Origin: Lactobacillus isalae
GTDB lineage: Bacteria > Bacillota > Bacilli > Lactobacillales > Lactobacillaceae
Direction: 5' to 3'
Length of the DNA stretch: 64,000 nt
NCBI RefSeq assembly: GCF_947539375.1
Contig: NZ_OX443569.1
Coordinates: 186,001 to 250,000 of the forward strand
Under the pieces are notes generated by a model, which had not been told where the DNA came from, searched no databases, and saw only the letters and a list, made by a program, of their open reading frames with translations. Below, piece by piece: positions 48,399 to 62,237 of this stretch. Numbering within the stretch: the stretch's first letter is position 1; each line of letters begins with the position of its first letter. The position numbers were made by a program, and so were the translations under genes.

Positions 48399-51300
48399 AT
48401 GCTTTCTAAAAGAAACCAAGACTTAAATAAAAATTTAGCTGATGAAAAGCAACGTTTCAGCATTAGAAAGTTTAACGTTGGGGCTGCCAGTGTATTACTT
48501 GGTACCTCATTAATGCTTGGCGTAAGTACGCAAGTAGCTCATGCCGATAGTAATGTAAATGACAATAGTATTGCGACTATTAATGCAAGCAATGCAGATA
48601 ATCAAGACAAGCAAGTAACTACAAGCAATCATACTGCTCAAGATAATGTGAATTTCGAAGCAAATAAGACTTCTGAAAGCAATGTAGATGATACTCAAAC
48701 TTCAAAAGATTCTACTGAAGATAAAATTGCTTCAACTCAAGAAAGTAATCAAGTTCAAAAAGATCAATCTAATAACGTAACTGCAACTACTAATAAGAGT
48801 GCTCAAGATTCTAAAGAAACTACTACTTTGAATCTTCAGTCTGCACAACCAGTAGTGGCTTCTGCTCTTAAAGAATCTAAAGTTGCTGAACCTACCAAAC
48901 AAGTTACGGCAACTCTTAATATTTATGATTATGATGATACTGATCTAAAGACACCTGATGTAAATAGAGGTGAGGGAGTAGCATTCACCTACACTGGAAA
49001 ATTTACAGATGGTTTATCAATTAGGGATGCAATTCAGGCGCAAATTGATCAAGATACCCAAAAGCAATTAGCTTATAAAGACCAAGGTACTGCAATTGTT
49101 CCTGATAAAGCTGGCCTTCCTACTGAAATTGGGGTATCACCGGTAGTTTATTCTTCATTTAGCGATAATACTCTTGGAGGTTATCATTTTCGCTATGAGA
49201 CAACACCAGAGTATACTAAAGATCTGCAAACCCAATTAGTTGATCAGTATAATAAGTGGCTTGATTATAAGAAAGCTCATTTTGCATTAGCTGGTTATAA
49301 ATTAGCCGATCAAGATGAACAAGCTATTAATCTTGATGATCCTATTGAAGCTGGCAAGACTTATAATATTTATGTTAATCACCAAATTTCGGTTGTGAAC
49401 ATTTACCACTGGACCGAATTAAAGCGCACAGTTGAGTTTAAGTATTATTACAAACAAGATGATAAAAACGATCAGGCTGCTGATTCTGTTACTAAAAATG
49501 GTTACTATAATGATGGAAAATATAATCAAGCCCAGCCTAAGCAATTTATCAATCATACGGGTGAGCCGGTTTTCAGTAATTTGCCAAAAATTGATAATAA
49601 TAGGGTAAATCAAACAGATATTAGTGATGCCAATAGCTTTGAAACAAGACTATTACCTGATGATTTAAAAACTACCAAAGATCAAACCAAAGTACTTCAT
49701 GATACAATTAATAGCAGATATGTTGACTTGGCCCTAGGATTAATCACAGATAACCAAGGCAACTTAAATAATTACGGAAAGGCAACTCCGATATATCCAA
49801 GTGGGACTATTTTATTTGAAGGCGAGCCAGTAAAGCAAATAGATGGTTGGCATACTTTTGATCCTGATGTACCAGACACGGGTAGTGATGATATTACTGA
49901 TACAAACACCTATTCCACAGTACAAGGAGCGTTTAACAAAGGTATTGGTGGTGTTAACGTTGCTCCTGTAAATAACCCTGCTACAACTACTATTTACTAC
50001 TATCACGATCAACCGGTGGACATTACCTTTGAAGATGTAACTAACGGGGATGCAAATGCATCTATCTTGTCTAACTTCACTGCAAGTAAAGACTTGCAGG
50101 TAGATTTAAACAGTGAATACATTCCTGGCAAGCCACACACTACCCCAAAGGATAAGAAAAATAATAAAAACCAAAAGTACGAAGCTTACAGCTATCAAGC
50201 TGACGACAACACTTATGATGCAAGTGCCATCAACGTTGATCCATCAGGTACTTTAAAGTCAAGTAAATCTTTAAACTATGCTGATGTCTTAAAAGCTTAC
50301 ACCGATAATGGTTATGTGTTAGTTTCAAGTGATCCAGATGATTTAACTTATGAACTTGAAGATGTCTATGATAATAACCGCAATTTGCAACATAAAAAGC
50401 GCGTAGTTAAATTGGTTCACCGTGCTGTTGCACATACTGATACTAAGACTGCTAACCGTACCATTCACTATGTAGCTAATAGTGAAGACGGCAAGCAGTT
50501 ACAAGATGACACCACACAAAATGTAACTTTAACTAGCAGTACTTACTATACGGATGCTGTAACAGGCAACCGCGTAAATGCAAAACAAGATGCAAATGGC
50601 GATTGGATTGTAGATACCGCTAATACTGATCCGGTTCCTGCAATTACTTGGACTGTAAATGCTGACAAGAGTACTGGCTTGACAACAGATAATAAGAACT
50701 TTGCTGCCATTACAACTCCAGAAACTATTACCTTAGATGCTGCCGAAGCTGCAAAGCGTGGAACTGATGGAGGCGAATGGTACTTAGTTTCAACTGACAA
50801 GAACGGTGAAGTATCTTACGGCGATCCAACTAGCGACACTTGGAAGAGCGATACTCCTAATAAGATTGCTGATGGTTACTTGGTCTACAAGCAAAAGGCC
50901 CAATATAACATTCACTACATCGACGTTAATGGCGTTGAAGGTAAGACTACTTATGCTCCAACTGACGGTCATGAACTTACTGATCGTTTAGTACAAAACG
51001 TTGGTGAAGGCAAAGGTATCTTTGTTGGCGATACTCCAGATGCAACCAGCAAGTTATGGAGCCCAGCAGATTACGAAAAAGCTGGCTATGTTTTAGTTGG
51101 TTTATCTGATAATGCCAAGGGTGATTTACTCGGTAAGCAAACTTTAACCCATGGCGTCCAAGATCAATACGTATACTTGAAGCACGCAGTGAAGACCATT
51201 ACGCCAAACACTCCAGTTGATGAAGTGCCAAAAGATCCAGAGGGCAATCCAATTGTAGACCCAAGTGATTTACATAAAGAATTCCACCGGACTATCTTCT

Positions 51301-54300
51301 ACAAGGCTAATACAACTGACGGTCAAACTTTAATGGGTCAAACCGATCAAAAGACTGAATTCAACGGTACGATCGCTTATGACGTTGTAACTGGTAAAAC
51401 AACTACCCCAGAAACTGTTAAAGATGTTAATGGCAAGGATGTTCAAGTAGCTACTCTTAAGGATGGTACTATTAGTTGGGATAAGCTAAATGATAAGTTT
51501 AGTGCTATTAACCAACCAACTATTGAATTGAAGAAAGGCGACAAATACGCAACTTCTGACGATATGATTGGTACTTGGTACTTAGTTGATGGTGAGGCTG
51601 GTGAAGTTGACTTAACTCCAGCTTCTAAGAATCCAGACGACAAGACCCTTGTTTACAAGCAAAAAGCTCAATACAACATTCACTACATTGATGTTAACGG
51701 CGTTGAAGATAAGACTACTTATGCTCCAACTGACGGTCATGAACTTACTGATTATTTAGTACAAAACGTTGGTGAAGACAAAGGTAGCTTTGTTGGTGAT
51801 ACTCCAGATGCAACCAGCAAGTTATGGAGTCCAGCAGACTATGAAAAAGCTGGCTATGTTTTAGTTGGTTTATCTGATAATGCCAAGGGTGATTTACTCG
51901 GTAAGCAAACTTTAACTCATGGCGTCCAAGATCAATACGTATACTTGAAGCACGCAGTTAAGGACATTACACCAAACACTCCAGTTGATGAAGTGCCAAA
52001 AGATCCAGATGGAAAACGTGCCGTTGATCCTAGCGATTTACATAAGGAATTTACTCGCACTATTACCTTTGTTGCAAATAATGATGCCAAGAGTCCTTTG
52101 AAGGATGCAGTTCCTCAAAAAGTTGAATTTGATGGTCATATTTATGTAGATATGGTAACTGGTCAAACTACCACTCCAGAAACTGTTAAGGATGCAAATG
52201 GTAAGACTACACAAGTTGCAACTACTAAAGCTGGCAATATTGAATGGAACCATGACACTCAAACTATGGATGAAGTAGTTCAGAAGTACATTACTTTGAA
52301 CAAGGGCGACAAGTACGCAACTTCTGATGATATGGTTGGTACTTGGCACTGGATTAGTGGTACGGCTGACGAGATTACTTTGACACCAACTTCAGATAAT
52401 CCTGAGGACCTTCAATTAGTTTACGAAAAGAACGAGCATGAAACAGGTCCAGATGAAGATCATGATTTACCAAAGGTTGACGTTAAGCAAGAAACAAAGA
52501 CCTTCACTAGAACTATTGTCTACCGCGGAACTAAAGATGGTGGCAAGACTTACCAAGATGTAAATGGTTCACCAGATGGTAAGAACACTTACAAGCAAAC
52601 TGTAACCTTTACTAGAAATATTTTCTCAACTACTAATAAGGATGGTAAGGTAACAATTCTTGAAACTGATCCATGGACAGCTCCTGATAGTACTATGGCG
52701 CGTGTAGATTCCAAGAAGCCTAGTGAAGTTGGTTATGACAAGGTTGATATTGAATCAGTTCCTGCAATCACCGTAGATCCAAATTCTGATAAAACTGATT
52801 TAGGAACTACCGTTGTAACTTACACAATTTCTTCAGTAACTCCACCAGTAGAAGAAACTCACCATGTAACAGTTCATTACGTTGATGAAGACGGCAATGT
52901 AATCAAAGACCCAGTTAAGGATCCTACTGATTACAAGAACGGCGAATCCTATGACGAAAACAGCAGAAAAGATTCTACTATCGAACATGATGGCAAGACT
53001 TACGAATTCACTCGTGTAAAGGAAGGCGACAATCCAACTGGCACTATTCAAGGTAAGGATGTTGACGTAACTTACGTTTACAAGCTGAAGGAAACCCCAG
53101 TAACTCCACCAACAGAAGAAACTCACCATGTAACAGTTCACTACGTTGATGAAAATGGTAATGTAATCAAGGATCCAGTTAAGGACCCAGTCGACTACAA
53201 GAATGGTGAATCTTACGACGAAAACAGTAGAAAAGACACAACTATTGAATACGATGGCAAGACTTACGAATTTACTCGTGTAAAGGAAGGCGACGTTCCA
53301 GCCGGTACCATTGATGGAAAAGACGTTGATGTAACTTACGTTTACAAGTTGAAGGAAACTCCAGTAACTCCACCAACAGAAGAAACTTACCACGTAACAG
53401 TTCACTACGTTGATGAAGATGGCAATGTAATCAAGGATCCAGTAAAGGACCCAGTTGACTACAAGAATGGCGAATCTTACGACGAAAACAGTAGAAAAGA
53501 CACAACTATTGAATACGATGGTAAGACCTACGAATTTACTCGTGTAAAAGAAGGCGACGTTCCAGCCGGTACCATTGATGGAAAAGACGTTGATGTAACT
53601 TACGTTTACAAGTTGAAGGAAACTCCGGTTACTCCACCAGTAGAAGAAACTCATCATGTAACAGTTCACTACGTTGATGAAGACGGCAATGTAATCAAGG
53701 ATCCAGTTAAGGACCCAGTTGACTACAAGAATGGCGAATCTTACGACGAAAACAGTAAGAAAGACACAACTATTGAACACGATGGTAAGACCTACGAATT
53801 TACTCGTGTAAAAGAAGGCGACGTTCCAGCCGGTACCATTGATGGAAAAGACGTTGATGTAACTTACGTTTACAAGTTGAAGGAAACTCCGGTTACTCCA
53901 CCAGTAGAAGAAACTCACCATGTAACAGTTCACTACGTTGATGAAGATGGCAATGTAATCAAGGATCCAGTAAAGGACCCAGTTGACTACAAGAATGGCG
54001 AATCTTACGACGAAAACAGTAAGAAAGACACAACTATTGAACACGATGGTAAGACTTACGAGTTTACTCGTGTAAAGGAAGGCGACGTTCCAGCCGGTAC
54101 CATTGATGGAAAAGACGTTGATGTAACCTACGTTTACAAGTTAAAGGAAACTCCAGTAACTCCACCAACAGAAGAAACTTACCACGTAACAGTTCACTAC
54201 GTTGATGAAGATGGCAATGTAATCAAGGATCCAGTAAAGGACCCAGTTGACTACAAGAATGGTGAATCTTACGACGAAAACAGTAAGAAAGACACAACTA

Positions 54301-55547
54301 TTGAACACGATGGCAAGACTTACGAATTTACTCGTGTAAAGGAAGGCGACGTTCCAGCCGGTACCATTGATGGAAAAGACGTTGATGTAACTTACGTTTA
54401 CAAGTTGAAGGAAACTCCGGTTACTCCACCAGTAGAAGAAACTTACAATGTAACAGTTCACTACGTTGATGAAGACGGCAATGTAATCAAGGATCCAGTA
54501 AAGGACCCAGTCGACTACAAGAATGGTGAATCTTACGACGAAAACAGTAAGAAAGACACAACTATTGAACACGATGGCAAGACTTACGAATTTACTCGTG
54601 TAAAGGAAGGCGACGTTCCAGCCGGTACCATTGATGGAAAAGACGTTGATGTAACTTACGTTTACAAGTTGAAGGAAACTCCGGTTACTCCACCAGTAGA
54701 AGAAACTTACAATGTAACAGTTCACTACGTTGATGAAGACGGCAATGTAATCAAGGATCCAGTAAAGGACCCAGTCGACTACAAGAATGGTGAATCTTAC
54801 GACGAAAACAGTAAGAAAGACACAACTATTGAACACGATGGCAAGACTTACGAATTTACTCGTGTAAAGGAAGGCGACGTTCCAGCCGGTACCATTGATG
54901 GAAAAGACGTTGATGTAACTTACGTTTACAAGTTGAAGGAAACTCCAGTAACTCCACCAACAGAAGAAACTTACCACGTAACAGTTCACTACGTTGATGA
55001 AGATGGCAATGTAATCAAGGATCCAGTTAAGGACCCAGTTGACTACAAGAATGGCGAATCTTACGACGAAAACAGTAAGAAAGACACAACTATTGAATAC
55101 GATGGTAAGACCTACGAATTTACTCGTGTAGAGAAAGGCGAAAGCCCAGTTGGAACTGTTGATGGTAAGGATGTTGATGTAACTTACGTTTACAAAGAAG
55201 TTGTAAAACCAAGCGAAGAACCTGCATCATCAGAAGATTCTAAACACCAAGCTGTTAAAGTTTCTAGTGCTGACAACAAGAATAAGATGGAAGAAAGAAC
55301 TACTAAGACTACTAAGAAGTCAGTTGAAACTCCTGTCTTGTCGCAAACTGCAAGTGTAGCGCACACACCAAGTGCAACTTACAAGACTCCAAAGTCAAAT
55401 AAACAGGTTGTATCACAACAAGCAACTAAAACTTTGCCACAAACTGGTGAAAAGAAGAATTCTAACTTAACAACAGTTGTTGGTTTAGCAGCACTTGCTC
55501 TTTCAGGTATCATTACATTAGCAATTGATCGTAAGAAGAAGAACTAA
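48399..55547 (+). CDS. Giant mucus-binding (MucBP/Mub) LPxTG surface adhesin
   Basis: Cell-wall-anchored adhesin of 2382 residues, predicted to bind mucin glycans. The N-terminus is a YSIRK-type signal (F-S-I-R-K at 20-24, hydrophobic core about 26-45, probable cleavage after A49 in A-H-A). A Ser/Thr/Asn/Gln-rich stretch runs to about residue 165. A unique region (about 170-550) is followed by large Mub-type repeats of 256 residues (50886-52421, plus an earlier diverged copy). Nine 88-residue MucBP units span residues 1480-2271. A linker then leads to the sortase motif L2346-P-Q-T-G2350, a membrane helix and an R-K-K-K-N tail. It forms a single-gene unit with its own promoter and terminator. 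The repeats show recent copying at DNA level. It may vary in repeat number between strains. Confidence 0.95.
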   Translation: MLSKRNQDLNKNLADEKQRFSIRKFNVGAASVLLGTSLMLGVSTQVAHADSNVNDNSIATINASNADNQDKQVTTSNHTAQDNVNFEANKTSESNVDDTQTSKDSTEDKIASTQESNQVQKDQSNNVTATTNKSAQDSKETTTLNLQSAQPVVASALKESKVAEPTKQVTATLNIYDYDDTDLKTPDVNRGEGVAFTYTGKFTDGLSIRDAIQAQIDQDTQKQLAYKDQGTAIVPDKAGLPTEIGVSPVVYSSFSDNTLGGYHFRYETTPEYTKDLQTQLVDQYNKWLDYKKAHFALAGYKLADQDEQAINLDDPIEAGKTYNIYVNHQISVVNIYHWTELKRTVEFKYYYKQDDKNDQAADSVTKNGYYNDGKYNQAQPKQFINHTGEPVFSNLPKIDNNRVNQTDISDANSFETRLLPDDLKTTKDQTKVLHDTINSRYVDLALGLITDNQGNLNNYGKATPIYPSGTILFEGEPVKQIDGWHTFDPDVPDTGSDDITDTNTYSTVQGAFNKGIGGVNVAPVNNPATTTIYYYHDQPVDITFEDVTNGDANASILSNFTASKDLQVDLNSEYIPGKPHTTPKDKKNNKNQKYEAYSYQADDNTYDASAINVDPSGTLKSSKSLNYADVLKAYTDNGYVLVSSDPDDLTYELEDVYDNNRNLQHKKRVVKLVHRAVAHTDTKTANRTIHYVANSEDGKQLQDDTTQNVTLTSSTYYTDAVTGNRVNAKQDANGDWIVDTANTDPVPAITWTVNADKSTGLTTDNKNFAAITTPETITLDAAEAAKRGTDGGEWYLVSTDKNGEVSYGDPTSDTWKSDTPNKIADGYLVYKQKAQYNIHYIDVNGVEGKTTYAPTDGHELTDRLVQNVGEGKGIFVGDTPDATSKLWSPADYEKAGYVLVGLSDNAKGDLLGKQTLTHGVQDQYVYLKHAVKTITPNTPVDEVPKDPEGNPIVDPSDLHKEFHRTIFYKANTTDGQTLMGQTDQKTEFNGTIAYDVVTGKTTTPETVKDVNGKDVQVATLKDGTISWDKLNDKFSAINQPTIELKKGDKYATSDDMIGTWYLVDGEAGEVDLTPASKNPDDKTLVYKQKAQYNIHYIDVNGVEDKTTYAPTDGHELTDYLVQNVGEDKGSFVGDTPDATSKLWSPADYEKAGYVLVGLSDNAKGDLLGKQTLTHGVQDQYVYLKHAVKDITPNTPVDEVPKDPDGKRAVDPSDLHKEFTRTITFVANNDAKSPLKDAVPQKVEFDGHIYVDMVTGQTTTPETVKDANGKTTQVATTKAGNIEWNHDTQTMDEVVQKYITLNKGDKYATSDDMVGTWHWISGTADEITLTPTSDNPEDLQLVYEKNEHETGPDEDHDLPKVDVKQETKTFTRTIVYRGTKDGGKTYQDVNGSPDGKNTYKQTVTFTRNIFSTTNKDGKVTILETDPWTAPDSTMARVDSKKPSEVGYDKVDIESVPAITVDPNSDKTDLGTTVVTYTISSVTPPVEETHHVTVHYVDEDGNVIKDPVKDPTDYKNGESYDENSRKDSTIEHDGKTYEFTRVKEGDNPTGTIQGKDVDVTYVYKLKETPVTPPTEETHHVTVHYVDENGNVIKDPVKDPVDYKNGESYDENSRKDTTIEYDGKTYEFTRVKEGDVPAGTIDGKDVDVTYVYKLKETPVTPPTEETYHVTVHYVDEDGNVIKDPVKDPVDYKNGESYDENSRKDTTIEYDGKTYEFTRVKEGDVPAGTIDGKDVDVTYVYKLKETPVTPPVEETHHVTVHYVDEDGNVIKDPVKDPVDYKNGESYDENSKKDTTIEHDGKTYEFTRVKEGDVPAGTIDGKDVDVTYVYKLKETPVTPPVEETHHVTVHYVDEDGNVIKDPVKDPVDYKNGESYDENSKKDTTIEHDGKTYEFTRVKEGDVPAGTIDGKDVDVTYVYKLKETPVTPPTEETYHVTVHYVDEDGNVIKDPVKDPVDYKNGESYDENSKKDTTIEHDGKTYEFTRVKEGDVPAGTIDGKDVDVTYVYKLKETPVTPPVEETYNVTVHYVDEDGNVIKDPVKDPVDYKNGESYDENSKKDTTIEHDGKTYEFTRVKEGDVPAGTIDGKDVDVTYVYKLKETPVTPPVEETYNVTVHYVDEDGNVIKDPVKDPVDYKNGESYDENSKKDTTIEHDGKTYEFTRVKEGDVPAGTIDGKDVDVTYVYKLKETPVTPPTEETYHVTVHYVDEDGNVIKDPVKDPVDYKNGESYDENSKKDTTIEYDGKTYEFTRVEKGESPVGTVDGKDVDVTYVYKEVVKPSEEPASSEDSKHQAVKVSSADNKNKMEERTTKTTKKSVETPVLSQTASVAHTPSATYKTPKSNKQVVSQQATKTLPQTGEKKNSNLTTVVGLAALALSGIITLAIDRKKKN
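50886..52421 (+). repeat. Two tandem 768-bp Mub-type repeats
   Basis: Units start at 50886 and 51654, each encoding 256 residues that begin Y-K-Q-K-A-Q-Y-N-I-H-Y-I-D-V-N-G. Similarity is highest in the first 110 residues and lower in the second half. A diverged copy of the second half also lies before 50886 (from R-T-I-H-Y-V-A-N near 50458). Confidence 0.88.
52836..55211 (+). repeat. Nine tandem 264-bp MucBP repeats with higher-order period three
   Basis: Unit starts are 52836, 53100, 53364, 53628, 53892, 54156, 54420, 54684 and 54948. Each encodes 88 residues containing H-Y-V-D-E-D-G-N-V-I-K-D-P-V. Linker types in order are VEETHH, TEETHH, TEETYH, VEETHH, VEETHH, TEETYH, VEETYN, VEETYN, TEETYH. 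The TEETYH linker recurs every third unit. Units at 54420 and 54684 appear identical apart from the last bases. This indicates block copying of 792 bp as well as single-unit copying. Confidence 0.93.
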
Positions 55548-57814: not shown

Positions 57815-58014
57815 TGGATTGGAAAAGCTTTTTTAGGAAGATAACAATTACGTGCTGGATGCTATGTTTGATTAGTTTTCTGGTTTTGATAGTTCGCTAT
57901 ACTGCAAGTGATATTGAATCATTTTTTGCATGGGATTATCCGTTAATATGGGTATTTATACTAGGATGCATTTTCTGTGTTTTGGCGATTTTTTGGCCTA
58001 AGAAAAATAAGTGA
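57814..58014 (+). CDS. Small two-helix membrane protein of unknown function
   Basis: 66-residue protein with two hydrophobic helices (about residues 10-28 and 43-60) and a K-K-N-K tail. Its ATG shares one base with the stop codon of the M42 gene, so it is co-translated. AAGGTGA inside the end of the M42 gene serves as ribosome site. No family recognised. Confidence 0.65.
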   Translation: MDWKSFFRKITITCWMLCLISFLVLIVRYTASDIESFFAWDYPLIWVFILGCIFCVLAIFWPKKNK

Positions 58015-58018
58015 TAAT

Positions 58019-58058
58019 AAAAACAGGAGATAGAATGAAGCTATCTCCTGTTTTTATT
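58019..58058. terminator. Bidirectional terminator
   Basis: AAAAACAGGAGATAG and CTATCTCCTGTTTTT make a perfect 15-bp stem between convergent operons. Confidence 0.92.
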
Positions 58059-58074
58059 ATTTAATTTAAATATT

Positions 58075-59361
58075 TTATTCTACTCGAGCAATTTCATCGT
58101 GTACTTTAATGTTGTGTGATCCTAAACTTGGCTCTTGACCATGAAGGTTGAATTTAACATTAACACCTGGTCTAAATAGAAGAACATGTGTTGATCCACC
58201 GAAGTGGAAAATGCCTAGTTGATCGCCTTTATTAATATGTTGACCAACTTTAACAGTTATTTCATTGCCAGATACTTCTGCCATCCCAACAGCAACAAAG
58301 CACATTAAGCCAATCTTTGGATTATCGGCCTTAATAAAGATAACAGCACGTGATGCAGTTTCAGTAATATATGCTTGAGAATCATTAGGAGCAGCAGGGT
58401 CAGGACCATTTGGATTTTCAAATCCTTGTGGTAATGTTTCTGAATAGTATGAACCATATAAATTATAAGCTTTAACAATAGTACCGCTAACAGGGCTATT
58501 CCATCTGTGATAGCTTAATGCACTTAGAAAGGCCTGATATAGCGTACCACCAACAAATTCAGAAGTTAACGGATCATTATGAAGCAAATCAATAAGTGAA
58601 TATGGCTGTCCTTTAATCCAGAATTTTGCCTTAAGAGGTAAATTATGAGCAATTCTATAAGGAGCTGATTCACATGCGTTAGCAATGGAATCTGGATCAT
58701 CAGCATTTTCTACAGGACGAACTCCAGGATTAAAGGTTCTGGTGAAGAAATGATCCCAAGATTTAAATCCATATTGTTGATCAATATCATTATTAGGACA
58801 AGCAAAGATATCATGAAAGTTTTTGCCATAAGCGGCATCACACATGCTCTTTAATGCTTCATCTCCAAGCCAACCTTCTTTAGAACGATTCAAAACATAA
58901 GTTGAATCTGAAGATTGCAAGAATTTTCCCCAATAATCTAGAATATCACGTAGTTTTTGATTAACACGTGGATCCATAAAAGCAACATATCCCGCTTTTG
59001 TAGCCATTGGATAATCCAAAATTGCATTAATTGGAAACCCAACTAGTCCAGTAGTATTAAATTCTGGAGCTCGGTGCATAACCCGATTAATAACTCTGAG
59101 CATTTGATGATAATTATGAACAGCTGGAGTATCCATTGGAGTTTTTACATATTTAGCTGGAACTTCCTCAAACATCATGTGAAATAAATTCCAAAGATAT
59201 CTATCAGATTCAATTAAATCTTTTAAGGCTTGAACAGGTGGCAAAAGAGTTTGATCTTGTTCTGCTTCAGCTTCTTTTAGAACCTTTTTTAGCCAATTAT
59301 TGTAGAATTCTTGATCACTAGGTAACCACTGTCCAACATTAAACTTTATATCTTTTTTCAT
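58075..59361 (-). CDS. Phosphatidylserine-decarboxylase-like pyruvoyl decarboxylase, copy 1
   Basis: Member of the phosphatidylserine decarboxylase superfamily, 428 residues, with a large N-terminal PSDC-type region (1 to about 200) of the kind found in amino-acid decarboxylating relatives such as the fungal tryptophan decarboxylase PsiD. The self-cleavage motif is G-G-S-T with S390, which would yield a pyruvoyl group and an alpha chain of only 39 residues. F-F-T-R-x-F-N-P-G-V-R-P (about 205-216) and Y-H-R-W-N-S-P-V-S-G (284-293) match the superfamily, but N288 stands where most members have histidine. No membrane helix is obvious. The start is ATG 59361 behind AAGGTGG; a GTG three codons earlier is less likely. 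It lies 15-25 bp after the antiporter gene. Likely substrate is a free amino acid, not a phospholipid (inference). Confidence 0.82.
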   Translation of the reverse strand: MKKDIKFNVGQWLPSDQEFYNNWLKKVLKEAEAEQDQTLLPPVQALKDLIESDRYLWNLFHMMFEEVPAKYVKTPMDTPAVHNYHQMLRVINRVMHRAPEFNTTGLVGFPINAILDYPMATKAGYVAFMDPRVNQKLRDILDYWGKFLQSSDSTYVLNRSKEGWLGDEALKSMCDAAYGKNFHDIFACPNNDIDQQYGFKSWDHFFTRTFNPGVRPVENADDPDSIANACESAPYRIAHNLPLKAKFWIKGQPYSLIDLLHNDPLTSEFVGGTLYQAFLSALSYHRWNSPVSGTIVKAYNLYGSYYSETLPQGFENPNGPDPAAPNDSQAYITETASRAVIFIKADNPKIGLMCFVAVGMAEVSGNEITVKVGQHINKGDQLGIFHFGGSTHVLLFRPGVNVKFNLHGQEPSLGSHNIKVHDEIARVE

Positions 59362-59384
59362 TTTGACCACCTTATAATAATTAA

Positions 59385-60818
59385 CTAAAATGCAATCTTC
59401 TTAGTAATTAGAAGATAAATAGAAATAACAGCAAGAATACAAATGATAATGGCAAGAGCCAGTTCCCATTTGTTAAATAAAGGAGCTTTAGTTTTATCAT
59501 ATTCTTTTCTTGCAAAGTAATAGAAAATAATACCTACAGCATAAATAATGGTTGAAATTAATAAATAATTTAATCCAGCTGCATATAATAGCCATAAACA
59601 GTAGATCGTTGATAGAATACCGATAAATAAGCTTTCATTTCTCTTCTTAGAGTTATTAGTGAATATTTCCCGTTTTTGAGCGATTTTCCACAAATACATT
59701 GAACTAAGAAGATAACAAGGTAAAATTATTACCCCGGTAATATCGATACAAGCTAAGTACACATTGTTAGCTGTAACAACTAAGATCATGAATAAAGACA
59801 TTAATACACTGGAAATATATAGAGAAGTGCTTGGTACTTTTTTCTTATTTTCATGAGCAAAGAATTTTGGTAATACATGGCCTTTAGCTGCAGCGTATGG
59901 AAGCTGTGCCATCATAACTGTCCATGCAACCCATGAACCACCAACAGAAATAATTACAGAAATTGTTACGAAGTCTATAAACCATGGACCTAATAAGTTT
60001 TTCATAATATAGGCTGTAGATGGATCAGTTAGTTTAGAAAGAGTTGGTTGGTGGTAAATACCATAAGCGACAATACTAATCAAAACGTAGGCAATTAATG
60101 ATGTTAAATAACCCAAAACGGTTGCTTTACCAACATCTTTTGGATTTTTGGCGTGGTTAGAAATAACTACCGCTCCTTCAATCCCGATAAAGCACCATAA
60201 TGTTACTAACATTGGAGATTTAATTTGTGAAACAAAGTTTCCTAAATGTAGGCCTTGTCCCCAGAATCCCCAGAAAAATGTTGGGAAACGGAAGAAAATT
60301 AGCATACAAATAAAAATAATGCCTAAGCTAATAAATTTGATGATAACAGTAATAGTGTTGAGGGAAGTAGCCTCTTTGACACCATTCAGAACTAAGAAGT
60401 TATAAATCCAAATTAAAACAATACCGAATATAACAGTTGGCCATTGGTGTTTAAGTAAAACTGGAAAGTAACGACCGAATGAGTCATTCAGCATAACTGC
60501 ATAAGCAACGTTTCCTGTAATTGCTTCAATCCAGTATCCCCATGCCGAGTTAAAACCAACATATTTACCAAAACCGGCGCGTGCATAAGAATATATACCG
60601 ATATTCAAATCTGGTCTTTCTTCGGCTAAGATTTTGAAAGTAAAAGCAAGTCCAAACATGCCAATACCAGTTAGAATCCAAGCAATGATAACGGCACCTA
60701 GGGATGATGAGGCAGCCATGTTTTGTGGAATATCAAAAATCCCGCCACCAATCATGGCACCGACTACCATAGCTATTAAACCAAAGAGACCAATTTTATG
60801 ACTTTTAGCTTTAGTCAT
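59385..60818 (-). CDS. APC amino-acid/amine antiporter (basic amino acid/polyamine type)
   Basis: Membrane exchanger of 477 residues with 12-13 helices, similar in pattern to ArcD/HdcP-type arginine:ornithine and histidine:histamine antiporters: V-V-G-A-M-I-G-G-G-I-F-D-I-P-Q-N at residues 17-32 and I-G-I-Y-S-Y-A-R-A-G-F-G-K-Y near residue 73. It lies between two pyruvoyl decarboxylase-like genes, 35 bp from the first and about 20 bp from the second. This is the classic layout of a decarboxylase/antiporter pathway that imports an amino acid and exports its amine. Substrate unknown. Confidence 0.88.
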   Translation of the reverse strand: MTKAKSHKIGLFGLIAMVVGAMIGGGIFDIPQNMAASSSLGAVIIAWILTGIGMFGLAFTFKILAEERPDLNIGIYSYARAGFGKYVGFNSAWGYWIEAITGNVAYAVMLNDSFGRYFPVLLKHQWPTVIFGIVLIWIYNFLVLNGVKEATSLNTITVIIKFISLGIIFICMLIFFRFPTFFWGFWGQGLHLGNFVSQIKSPMLVTLWCFIGIEGAVVISNHAKNPKDVGKATVLGYLTSLIAYVLISIVAYGIYHQPTLSKLTDPSTAYIMKNLLGPWFIDFVTISVIISVGGSWVAWTVMMAQLPYAAAKGHVLPKFFAHENKKKVPSTSLYISSVLMSLFMILVVTANNVYLACIDITGVIILPCYLLSSMYLWKIAQKREIFTNNSKKRNESLFIGILSTIYCLWLLYAAGLNYLLISTIIYAVGIIFYYFARKEYDKTKAPLFNKWELALAIIICILAVISIYLLITKKIAF

Positions 60819-60853
60819 TTTGAGATCTTCTTTCTTTTAATTAAAAATCTAAC

Positions 60854-62140
60854 TTACTTAACACGAGCTATTTCTTCACGGACTTTAATATTTGAGCTTC
60901 CTAAACCAGGTTCTTGATCATGTAAATTGAACTCAACATTAGTTTCTGGTCTAAATAGAAGTACATGAGTTGAACCGCCAAAGTGGAACATGCCTAGTTG
61001 ATCGCCTTTGTTAACGTGTTGACCTACGCGTACAGTAATTTCATCGCTTGAAACTTCGGACATACCGACGGCAACAAAGCACATTAAGCCAATCTTTGGA
61101 TTATCAGCTTTAATGAAAATGACAGCACGAGTAGCGGTAGCAGTTAAAAAGGCTTGTGAGTCGTTGGCTGCAACAGGATCGGCGCCACGTTCATTTTCAA
61201 ATCCTTGATATAGACTTTCTGAATAATATGAACCTGGTAAATTATAAGCTTTTACAATTGTTCCACTAACTGGACTATTCCATCTGTGGTAACTTAAAGC
61301 GCTTAAAAATGCTTGATATAAAGTGCCACCCTCAAATTTAGATGTCCATGGGTCGTTGTGAAGAAGATCCATTAATGAATATGGTTGGCCCTTAATCCAG
61401 AATTTTGCTTTCATTGGAAGATTACGAGCAATTCTAAATGGTGCGGATTCACAAGCATTTGCAATAGAATCAGGATCATCTGGATCTTGGACAGGACGAA
61501 TTCCAGGGTTAAATAAACGGGTAAAGAAGTTATCCCATGAGGTAAATCCCAAATGCTTTTCTCGATCATCGGATTCGCATTTGAAAATAGTGGTAAATTT
61601 ATCACCATCAGCTACTTTAGACATTTCATTTAATGCATAGTCACTTAACCATCCATTTTTAGAGGTATTAAGAACATAGGTAGAGGCTGGAGTTTGTAGA
61701 TATTTACCCCAATAGTTTAATATATCTCTTAATTTTTCGTTAATTTTTGGATTCATAAAGAAGACATATCCGGCTTTAGTAGCCATTGGATAATCTAAAA
61801 TTGCATTAATTGGTGTTCCAACTAGTCCAGTAGTATTAAATTCAGGTGCTCTTTGAATAATACGATTAAGCATTAATAACATTTGCTTATAATTACGAAC
61901 CTGTGGTGTTCCCATTGGAGTATCAATATATTTTTCAGGTATTTCATCAAACATCATCTGAGTAATATTGTATAAATATCTATCAGATTCAATTAGATTC
62001 TTTAAAGCTTGAACTGGTGGAAGTAATTTTTTATTTTCTTCGCTTTCTGCTTCTTTTAGAACCTTTTTTAACCATTTATTGTAAAACTCTTGGTCGCTAG
62101 GTAACCATTGTCCTACATTGTATTGAATATTCTTTTTCAT
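60854..62140 (-). CDS. Phosphatidylserine-decarboxylase-like pyruvoyl decarboxylase, copy 2
   Basis: Paralogue of the gene at 58075-59361, also 428 residues and collinear without gaps at its key points: F-F-T-R-L-F-N-P-G-I-R-P (205-216), Y-H-R-W-N-S-P-V-S-G (284-293) and G-G-S-T with S390. Differences concentrate around residues 55-95 and 160-200, which may line the substrate pocket. It is the first gene of the operon, behind a clear promoter. It could form mixed assemblies with copy 1 or take a second amino acid. Confidence 0.82.
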   Translation of the reverse strand: MKKNIQYNVGQWLPSDQEFYNKWLKKVLKEAESEENKKLLPPVQALKNLIESDRYLYNITQMMFDEIPEKYIDTPMGTPQVRNYKQMLLMLNRIIQRAPEFNTTGLVGTPINAILDYPMATKAGYVFFMNPKINEKLRDILNYWGKYLQTPASTYVLNTSKNGWLSDYALNEMSKVADGDKFTTIFKCESDDREKHLGFTSWDNFFTRLFNPGIRPVQDPDDPDSIANACESAPFRIARNLPMKAKFWIKGQPYSLMDLLHNDPWTSKFEGGTLYQAFLSALSYHRWNSPVSGTIVKAYNLPGSYYSESLYQGFENERGADPVAANDSQAFLTATATRAVIFIKADNPKIGLMCFVAVGMSEVSSDEITVRVGQHVNKGDQLGMFHFGGSTHVLLFRPETNVEFNLHDQEPGLGSSNIKVREEIARVK

Positions 62141-62208
62141 AATTTATACCTCGATATTTATGAAAAAATAACACTAAACTTAATAAAAATGTGCACACTT
62201 TCACTGTC

Positions 62209-62237
62209 ACTATAAGGCTAAATCTAAGAGTGGTCAA
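62209..62237 (-). promoter_or_regulatory. Promoter of the pyruvoyl decarboxylase/antiporter operon
   Basis: On the minus strand: -35 TTGACC (62237-62232), 17-bp spacer, -10 TATAGT (62214-62209). The leader to the ATG is about 65 bases. Confidence 0.75.

Follow-up and report, generated by a model that had tools for sequence, protein, structure and literature searches.

The window analysed here is a 64,000-nucleotide stretch of the Lactobacillus isalae genome (contig NZ_OX443569.1, positions 186,001 to 250,000), which is assembled as one contig of 2.12 Mb, and our subject is a head-to-tail set of three minus-strand genes within it. The first, which we call PSD1 for its phosphatidylserine decarboxylase (PSD)-like product, spans positions 60854-62140 and codes for a predicted pyruvoyl decarboxylase of the PSDC/PS_Dcarbxylase family, 428 amino acids long. 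It is followed after 35 bases by the gene for an APC-superfamily basic amino acid/polyamine antiporter of 477 amino acids (59385-60818), a predicted arginine/agmatine exchanger, and after a further 23 bases by PSD2 (58075-59361), a paralogue of PSD1 with a product of the same length. For PSD2 we prefer the ATG at 59361 as the start codon, because the alternative GTG at 59370 lies, as judged by eye, inside a Shine-Dalgarno-like stretch. The PSD1-antiporter-PSD2 operon is real. Downstream of PSD2 is a strong intrinsic-terminator-like hairpin with a 20-bp stem (58014-58060, minus strand, listed on both strands; z -10). Upstream of PSD1 stands a candidate sigma-70-type promoter, TTGACC-17-TATAGT (62237-62209, minus strand), which matches at 10 of 12 positions. 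An earlier sequence-only reading of this DNA placed all three genes behind one promoter, a claim that this site does little to secure: the match is not above chance, since promoter-like sites of this quality are no commoner in the region than in shuffled sequence (15 observed versus 21.5).

The two enzymes are 75.7% identical and have the same domain structure, with a PSDC domain (PF12588; E-values of 2e-49 in PSD1 and 4.5e-49 in PSD2) and a PS_Dcarbxylase domain that is above the cut-off in both (PF02666; 1.8e-36 and 4.1e-34). Each carries a GGST motif, at whose serine, S390, the precursor would be divided into a beta chain of residues 1-389 and a short alpha chain of 39 residues (390-428). 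The sequence-only description of two 428-residue paralogues flanking an antiporter, each with such a motif and predicted alpha chain, is borne out. The closest solved relatives are a PsiD-like protein (9jer, 265 bits) and PsiD (222 bits), the latter a tryptophan decarboxylase by its name in the PDB; PSD1 is 39-40% identical to these PsiD and PsiD-like chains (39% to PsiD). PsiD (8x4q, 8x4s) and the PsiD-like protein (9jer, 9jf5, 9jfn) belong to the same two-domain family as the window enzymes, and the GG(S) end of their beta chains aligns with the cleavage motif seen here. Neither PSD1 nor PSD2 has a Pfam match to PF01862 (PvlArgDC) or to the histidine decarboxylase domain.

Given the PF02666 domain, and given that relatives are publicly annotated as ‘phosphatidylserine decarboxylase family protein’, the two gene products might be true phosphatidylserine decarboxylases that make phosphatidylethanolamine; we regard this as extremely improbable. 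Both proteins fall under all the NCBIfam PSD equivalog cut-offs that they match, the best score being 88.1 versus 371 bits, and the lipid PSD chain scores 27 bits where the PsiD-like one reaches 265. PSD1 and PSD2 are the only PF02666 genes in the host genome, and the one PF01066 gene, which codes for 187 amino acids, is pgsA-like by its position next to recA. No PF01066-family phosphatidylserine synthase was found beyond this pgsA-like gene, a PLD-type synthase not having been searched for. A lipid substrate is unlikely because the sole PF01066 gene is pgsA-like and the two enzymes are the sole PF02666 genes. A Kyte-Doolittle scan found no hydrophobic segment in either enzyme, in line with the lack of membrane anchoring that the earlier reading had argued from. 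On genome content and model scores we rejected a lipid phosphatidylserine decarboxylase as a candidate, and PSD1 and PSD2 are most likely not lipid enzymes.

The antiporter scores above the cut-off for the TIGR00905 subfamily (510 versus 409 bits), and its closest solved chains are structures of the arginine/agmatine antiporter AdiC. It falls under the cut-offs for arginine-ornithine exchange (495 versus 591 bits) and histidine-histamine exchange (388 versus 725 bits).

We then considered the genomic neighbourhoods of related genes, taken from one scan of genome contigs (the best 80 of 85); the neighbour comparison covered APC antiporters of the same group or of the PotE type, other kinds of transporter being invisible to it. 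An antiporter of this sort stands beside the PSD-like gene at 13 of the 80 loci, namely four in Lactobacillus together with L018, L032, L049, L051, L055, L056, L059, L076 and L081, and the linkage occurs in five separate places of a tree of 87 aligned sequences, from which L001-L008, L019, L053, L061, L083, L085, L087, L097, L098 and L104 were omitted as duplicate, short or broken. The same association was seen in two of five plasmid regions compared, a sixth, unannotated, being left out. The coupling of a PsiD-like, predicted pyruvoyl enzyme with an antiporter, as first proposed from the sequence of this operon, therefore recurs well beyond it.

At five of the 80 loci the PSD-like gene also has beside it a gene for agmatine deiminase (AguA), for N-carbamoylputrescine amidase (AguB), or for both: AguA and AguB at L018, L049 and L076, AguB at L051 and AguA at L081. 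The hosts are a Veillonellaceae metagenome-assembled genome (MAG; L018), Klebsiella, Pseudomonas psychrophila and two Endozoicomonas, and an APC antiporter is present in each. All these AguA and AguB proteins exceed the cut-off of TIGR03380 or TIGR03381, the truncated AguA of L081 missing a second AguA model. The linkage is found in three lineages, which form separate, well-supported clades of the tree, its deep nodes being weak. AguA above the cut-off was found in 8 of 45 genomes that carry the PSD-like gene (none of them Lactobacillus), and in four of these eight it lies inside the PSD operon; by a simple binomial, the chance that at least three of eight AguA genes would fall within 6 kb of the PSD gene is about 1e-6. 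It is this context, beside five of 80 relatives, that hints at agmatine as a possible product of the predicted decarboxylases.

Ten further neighbour proteins in all, picked by short gaps or length, were also tested, coming from seven of the 80 loci and including an extra gene each from L022 and L046. Four had no NCBIfam match at an E-value of 1e-20, and the remaining six were a NodT-type efflux protein, a UbiB-like protein, a metallophosphoesterase, an ‘aminoacetone oxidase family’ flavoprotein, a SulP protein and a dipeptidase; no amine gene was among the seven neighbours at the Edwardsiella, Pantoea, Erwinia and L018 loci. The flavoprotein gene belongs to a Saganbacteria MAG, where it lies 34 bases 3' of the PSD-like gene (L080:7201-8394).

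The organization of the L018 operon bears on the identity of the substrate. On a 101-kb contig, with an even GC content of 0.36-0.41 across the 14 kb examined, the genes are arranged in the order antiporter-AguA-AguB-PSD with gaps of 11-29 bases. The PSD-like protein is 67-69% identical to PSD1 and PSD2, being slightly closer to PSD2 (69%), and the antiporter is 64% identical to that of the window. At the head of this operon is a frame of 263 amino acids (L018:1617-2408) that matches an AdiA-like decarboxylase dependent on pyridoxal phosphate (PLP) solely over the stretch between residue 482 and the C-terminus; it scores 240.9 bits against the arginine model, below the cut-off, and 238.8 bits against the lysine model. 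At L032, a full AdiA-like PLP gene lies between the antiporter and PSD genes, and the model it matches best is that of arginine decarboxylase (706 bits, under the cut-off of 1167). The C-terminal AdiA-like remnant at the operon head suggests that in L018 the PSD-like enzyme took over the place of an arginine decarboxylase.

Low ratios of nonsynonymous to synonymous change (dN/dS) indicate that PSD1, the antiporter and PSD2 are all kept by purifying selection. PSD1 is 98% identical to its L. taiwanensis orthologue, a similarity that puts the window in the johnsonii/taiwanensis group, and comparison of the two enzymes with L. taiwanensis and a MAG relative gave values of 0.016-0.019 (0.019 for PSD1 versus L. 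taiwanensis), with 0.035 for the antiporter versus L. taiwanensis. For orthologues further away, dN/dS lay at 0.056-0.094 with dS near saturation, and between the paralogues PSD1 and PSD2 the value was 0.13.

These values have to be set beside an unusual residue of the presumed active site. The residues of PSD1 and PSD2 that align with the Asp-His-Ser triad are E231, N288 and S390, so that only the serine is retained. N288 aligns with the second histidine of the YHRVH motif in the lipid PSD chain, a histidine that we take to be a member of the self-cleavage triad. PSD1 and PSD2 both have asparagine here, as does every Lactobacillus sequence in the alignment; across the 87 sequences, the column holds histidine in 63 and asparagine in 24. 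The sequence-only reading had counted N288 among its reasons against a lipid substrate, which the alignment does not uphold: the residue does not track substrate, because all five relatives linked to AguA/AguB have histidine, as PsiD does. An operon that has lost pyruvoyl formation through this substitution and is now a decaying, non-functional remnant would fit with the asparagine in both copies, with the locus of L. johnsonii ATCC 33200, which is reduced to a PSD1/PSD2 hybrid with broken frames and no antiporter, and with genome G012, whose only PSD copy is interrupted by stops. The strong constraint on both enzymes and on the antiporter versus near relatives argues against such decay, and N288 need not abolish self-cleavage, because the solved chain 9jer has asparagine at this position too; we therefore consider a remnant very unlikely.

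Taken together, we think it likely that the three genes form a module for arginine-to-agmatine exchange. In this scheme, the antiporter would import arginine, while PSD1 and PSD2 would cleave themselves at Gly389-Ser390 to generate the pyruvoyl cofactor and would decarboxylate arginine to agmatine, consuming a cytoplasmic proton. Agmatine would then leave in exchange for further arginine, with the result that internal pH would be raised and proton-motive force made. Where relatives also have AguA and AguB, the pathway would be extended to putrescine. Export of agmatine is to be expected in L. isalae, since its genome has no match for AguA, the arginase/agmatinase family or PvlArgDC. Self-cleavage, arginine as the substrate, agmatine export and acid protection are all steps that we infer from sequence and gene context. 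The interpretation first put forward for this DNA, an amine-forming, acid-protecting pathway, is partly supported; it named no substrate, and the neighbouring genes of relatives now point to arginine.

The substrate could instead be a different amino acid of cationic or aromatic type (ornithine, lysine, histidine or tryptophan), or substrates could be split, with PSD2 and the antiporter serving arginine and PSD1 something else; the sequence-only reading had likewise raised the prospect of two substrates or of a mixed enzyme. The resemblance of PSD1 to PsiD is compatible with this, as is the finding that PSD1 and PSD2 form separate clades, with PSD1-type genes lacking an antiporter in most Lactobacillus carriers examined. 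A split might also explain why dN/dS is higher between the paralogues than between near or distant orthologues, a weak contrast because dS is near saturation among the distant ones. Arginine is favoured by the AguA/AguB linkage in three lineages and by the AdiA-like neighbours. At 22 positions that the bacterial family conserves, the residue occurs in 9jer and is missing from the PsiD row (three of them, G10, P75 and S390, being gaps in that row), a difference that separates the family from PsiD only. We consider a different or divided substrate unlikely.

Several observations weigh against an arginine-to-agmatine module. Among the relatives, no such antiporter was found at 67 of the 80 loci, and neither AguA nor AguB at 75, many contigs being short; the antiporters of the Klebsiella and Pseudomonas relatives are of the PotE type; and the gene is present in just one of 380 genomes of the class to which L018 belongs, L018 itself. 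SpeA exceeds the cut-off in the genomes of L049, L051 and L076, and the L018 genome has other PLP decarboxylases (one gene of the ornithine-decarboxylase type and one short PLP decarboxylase), so these hosts could obtain agmatine from enzymes other than the PSD-like one. The stronger proposal that it is the sole source is weakened accordingly, by SpeA in three of the five Agu-linked genomes and by the L018 enzymes; in the fragmentary L081 genome no SpeA above the cut-off, PF01276 or PF01862 was found, SpeD-derived arginine decarboxylases not having been searched. Within the operon itself, the antiporter lies under the cut-off of the arginine/agmatine antiporter equivalog (184.6 versus 574 bits) and below every equivalog cut-off among the models listed, and the presumed cleavage triad has N288 where histidine is conserved. 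In Lactobacillus, finally, most PSD copies stand alone: 10 of 14 related genomes with a PSD match have no antiporter, one of the ten being a weak match outside the genus. Nothing in Lactobacillus ties PSD to agmatine either, because the genomes with a PSD match (14 of 60 related genomes) and those with an AguA match (10 of 60) never overlap, and the case for arginine thus rests on relatives outside the genus.

An orthologous antiporter (at least 88% identity) is present in four of these 60 genomes, all four of which have PSD genes. In an evenly drawn sample of the phylum, the window genome was the sole carrier (1 of 398). Away from the operon, the host genome also contains a single large gene for a PLP decarboxylase of the PF01276 type. 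In L. taiwanensis a third PSD-like paralogue, 82% identical to PSD1, lies directly upstream of PSD1-antiporter-PSD2 (L009:4507-5793). The single frame-broken gene of L. johnsonii ATCC 33200 (L053:6001-7272) is PSD1-like over residues 1-241 and PSD2-like over residues 242-428; an M42 peptidase gene (97%) is nearby and there is no antiporter match. PSD1 and PSD2 seem to have recombined here, deleting what lay between them.

The proposed exchange has well-known parallels. In Escherichia coli, AdiA and AdiC bring arginine in, decarboxylate it using a proton and release agmatine, which provides acid resistance. The window operon has the same logic of decarboxylase plus antiporter, and AdiC is the nearest solved relative of its antiporter, but AdiA depends on PLP and has a different fold, and the window antiporter misses the arginine/agmatine cut-off. 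HdcA and HdcP of Lactobacillus pair a pyruvoyl enzyme with an APC antiporter for histidine-histamine exchange; in contrast, the window enzymes lack the histidine decarboxylase domain, and their antiporter is well under the corresponding cut-off. PsiD differs in acting, by its name, on tryptophan rather than on the arginine proposed here, and we know of no exchange operon for it. A PSD-annotated arginine decarboxylase with a small C-terminal subunit was reportedly described in Aspergillus oryzae by Murakami et al. in 2024.

Closer in enzyme chemistry is the chlamydial AaxB/AaxC system, described as a pyruvoyl-dependent arginine decarboxylase and an arginine:agmatine antiporter in one operon (PMC2720952). 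The window operon likewise joins an antiporter to enzymes predicted to be pyruvoyl-dependent. AaxB, however, has 195 amino acids and is cut at Ser53 (PMC2720952), whereas the two window enzymes have 428, belong to the PSD superfamily and have a predicted cut near their end; the window operon also lacks a porin-like gene. Pyruvoyl arginine decarboxylases are said to comprise three convergent forms with different folds, one of which is the fungal A. oryzae enzyme with a fold of its own (PMC12283126). SpeD-derived arginine decarboxylases have also been reported (PMC10407285). The main text of a 2025 survey of gut decarboxylases does not contain the word ‘phosphatidylserine’ (PMC12484125), and we found no bacterial PSD-family arginine decarboxylase in the titles and abstract starts of the open-licence literature searched. 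The pathway had been called undescribed in the sequence-only reading, which is too broad given PsiD and the A. oryzae enzyme. The exchange system itself is established and enzymes of this type may have a fungal precedent, but the literature searched seems to hold no description of the bacterial family or of its operons.

Viewed across its relatives, this is more likely than not a PSD-fold arginine decarboxylase found in many bacterial phyla, joined repeatedly to an antiporter or to AguA/AguB and once placed beside an AdiA-like remnant, and duplicated in gut Lactobacillus for acid defence and agmatine output. If so, a widely misnamed bacterial family would gain a function, the common ‘phosphatidylserine decarboxylase family protein’ annotation would be corrected, and a PSD-superfamily route to agmatine would be added, with non-homologous replacement of AdiA-like enzymes suggested. 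It would also mean that agmatine is made by a gut Lactobacillus whose genome has no AguA, agmatinase or PvlArgDC matches. Agmatine output by commensals is of interest because agmatine is bioactive in animals.

Two plasmids carry pairs of an antiporter gene and a PSD-like gene, one from Enterobacter cancerogenus (typed as conjugative; L099:4451-7251) and one from Photobacterium damselae (typed as non-mobilizable; L101:1726-4657), and the module may move between species; no near match to the window operon was found in plasmids, nor to the L049 stretch in E. coli. A more distant branch, mostly at 36-39% identity, comprises L103:5962-7203 and Burkholderiales plasmid matches from Burkholderia, Caballeronia, Paraburkholderia and Mycetohabitans. 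The single locus inspected in this branch has no antiporter, and the substrate of the branch may differ. At L018, a DUF1440 (Pfam PF07274) gene lies 250 bases 3' of the PSD-like gene (L018:7537-8100); its family includes E. coli YagU, which we take to be linked to acid resistance. In the window itself, two listed open reading frames before the operon, is the gene for a YSIRK-type surface protein of 2382 amino acids (48399-55547), whose C-terminal repeats are numerous and nearly identical, with a sorting signal of the LPQTG type as judged by eye.

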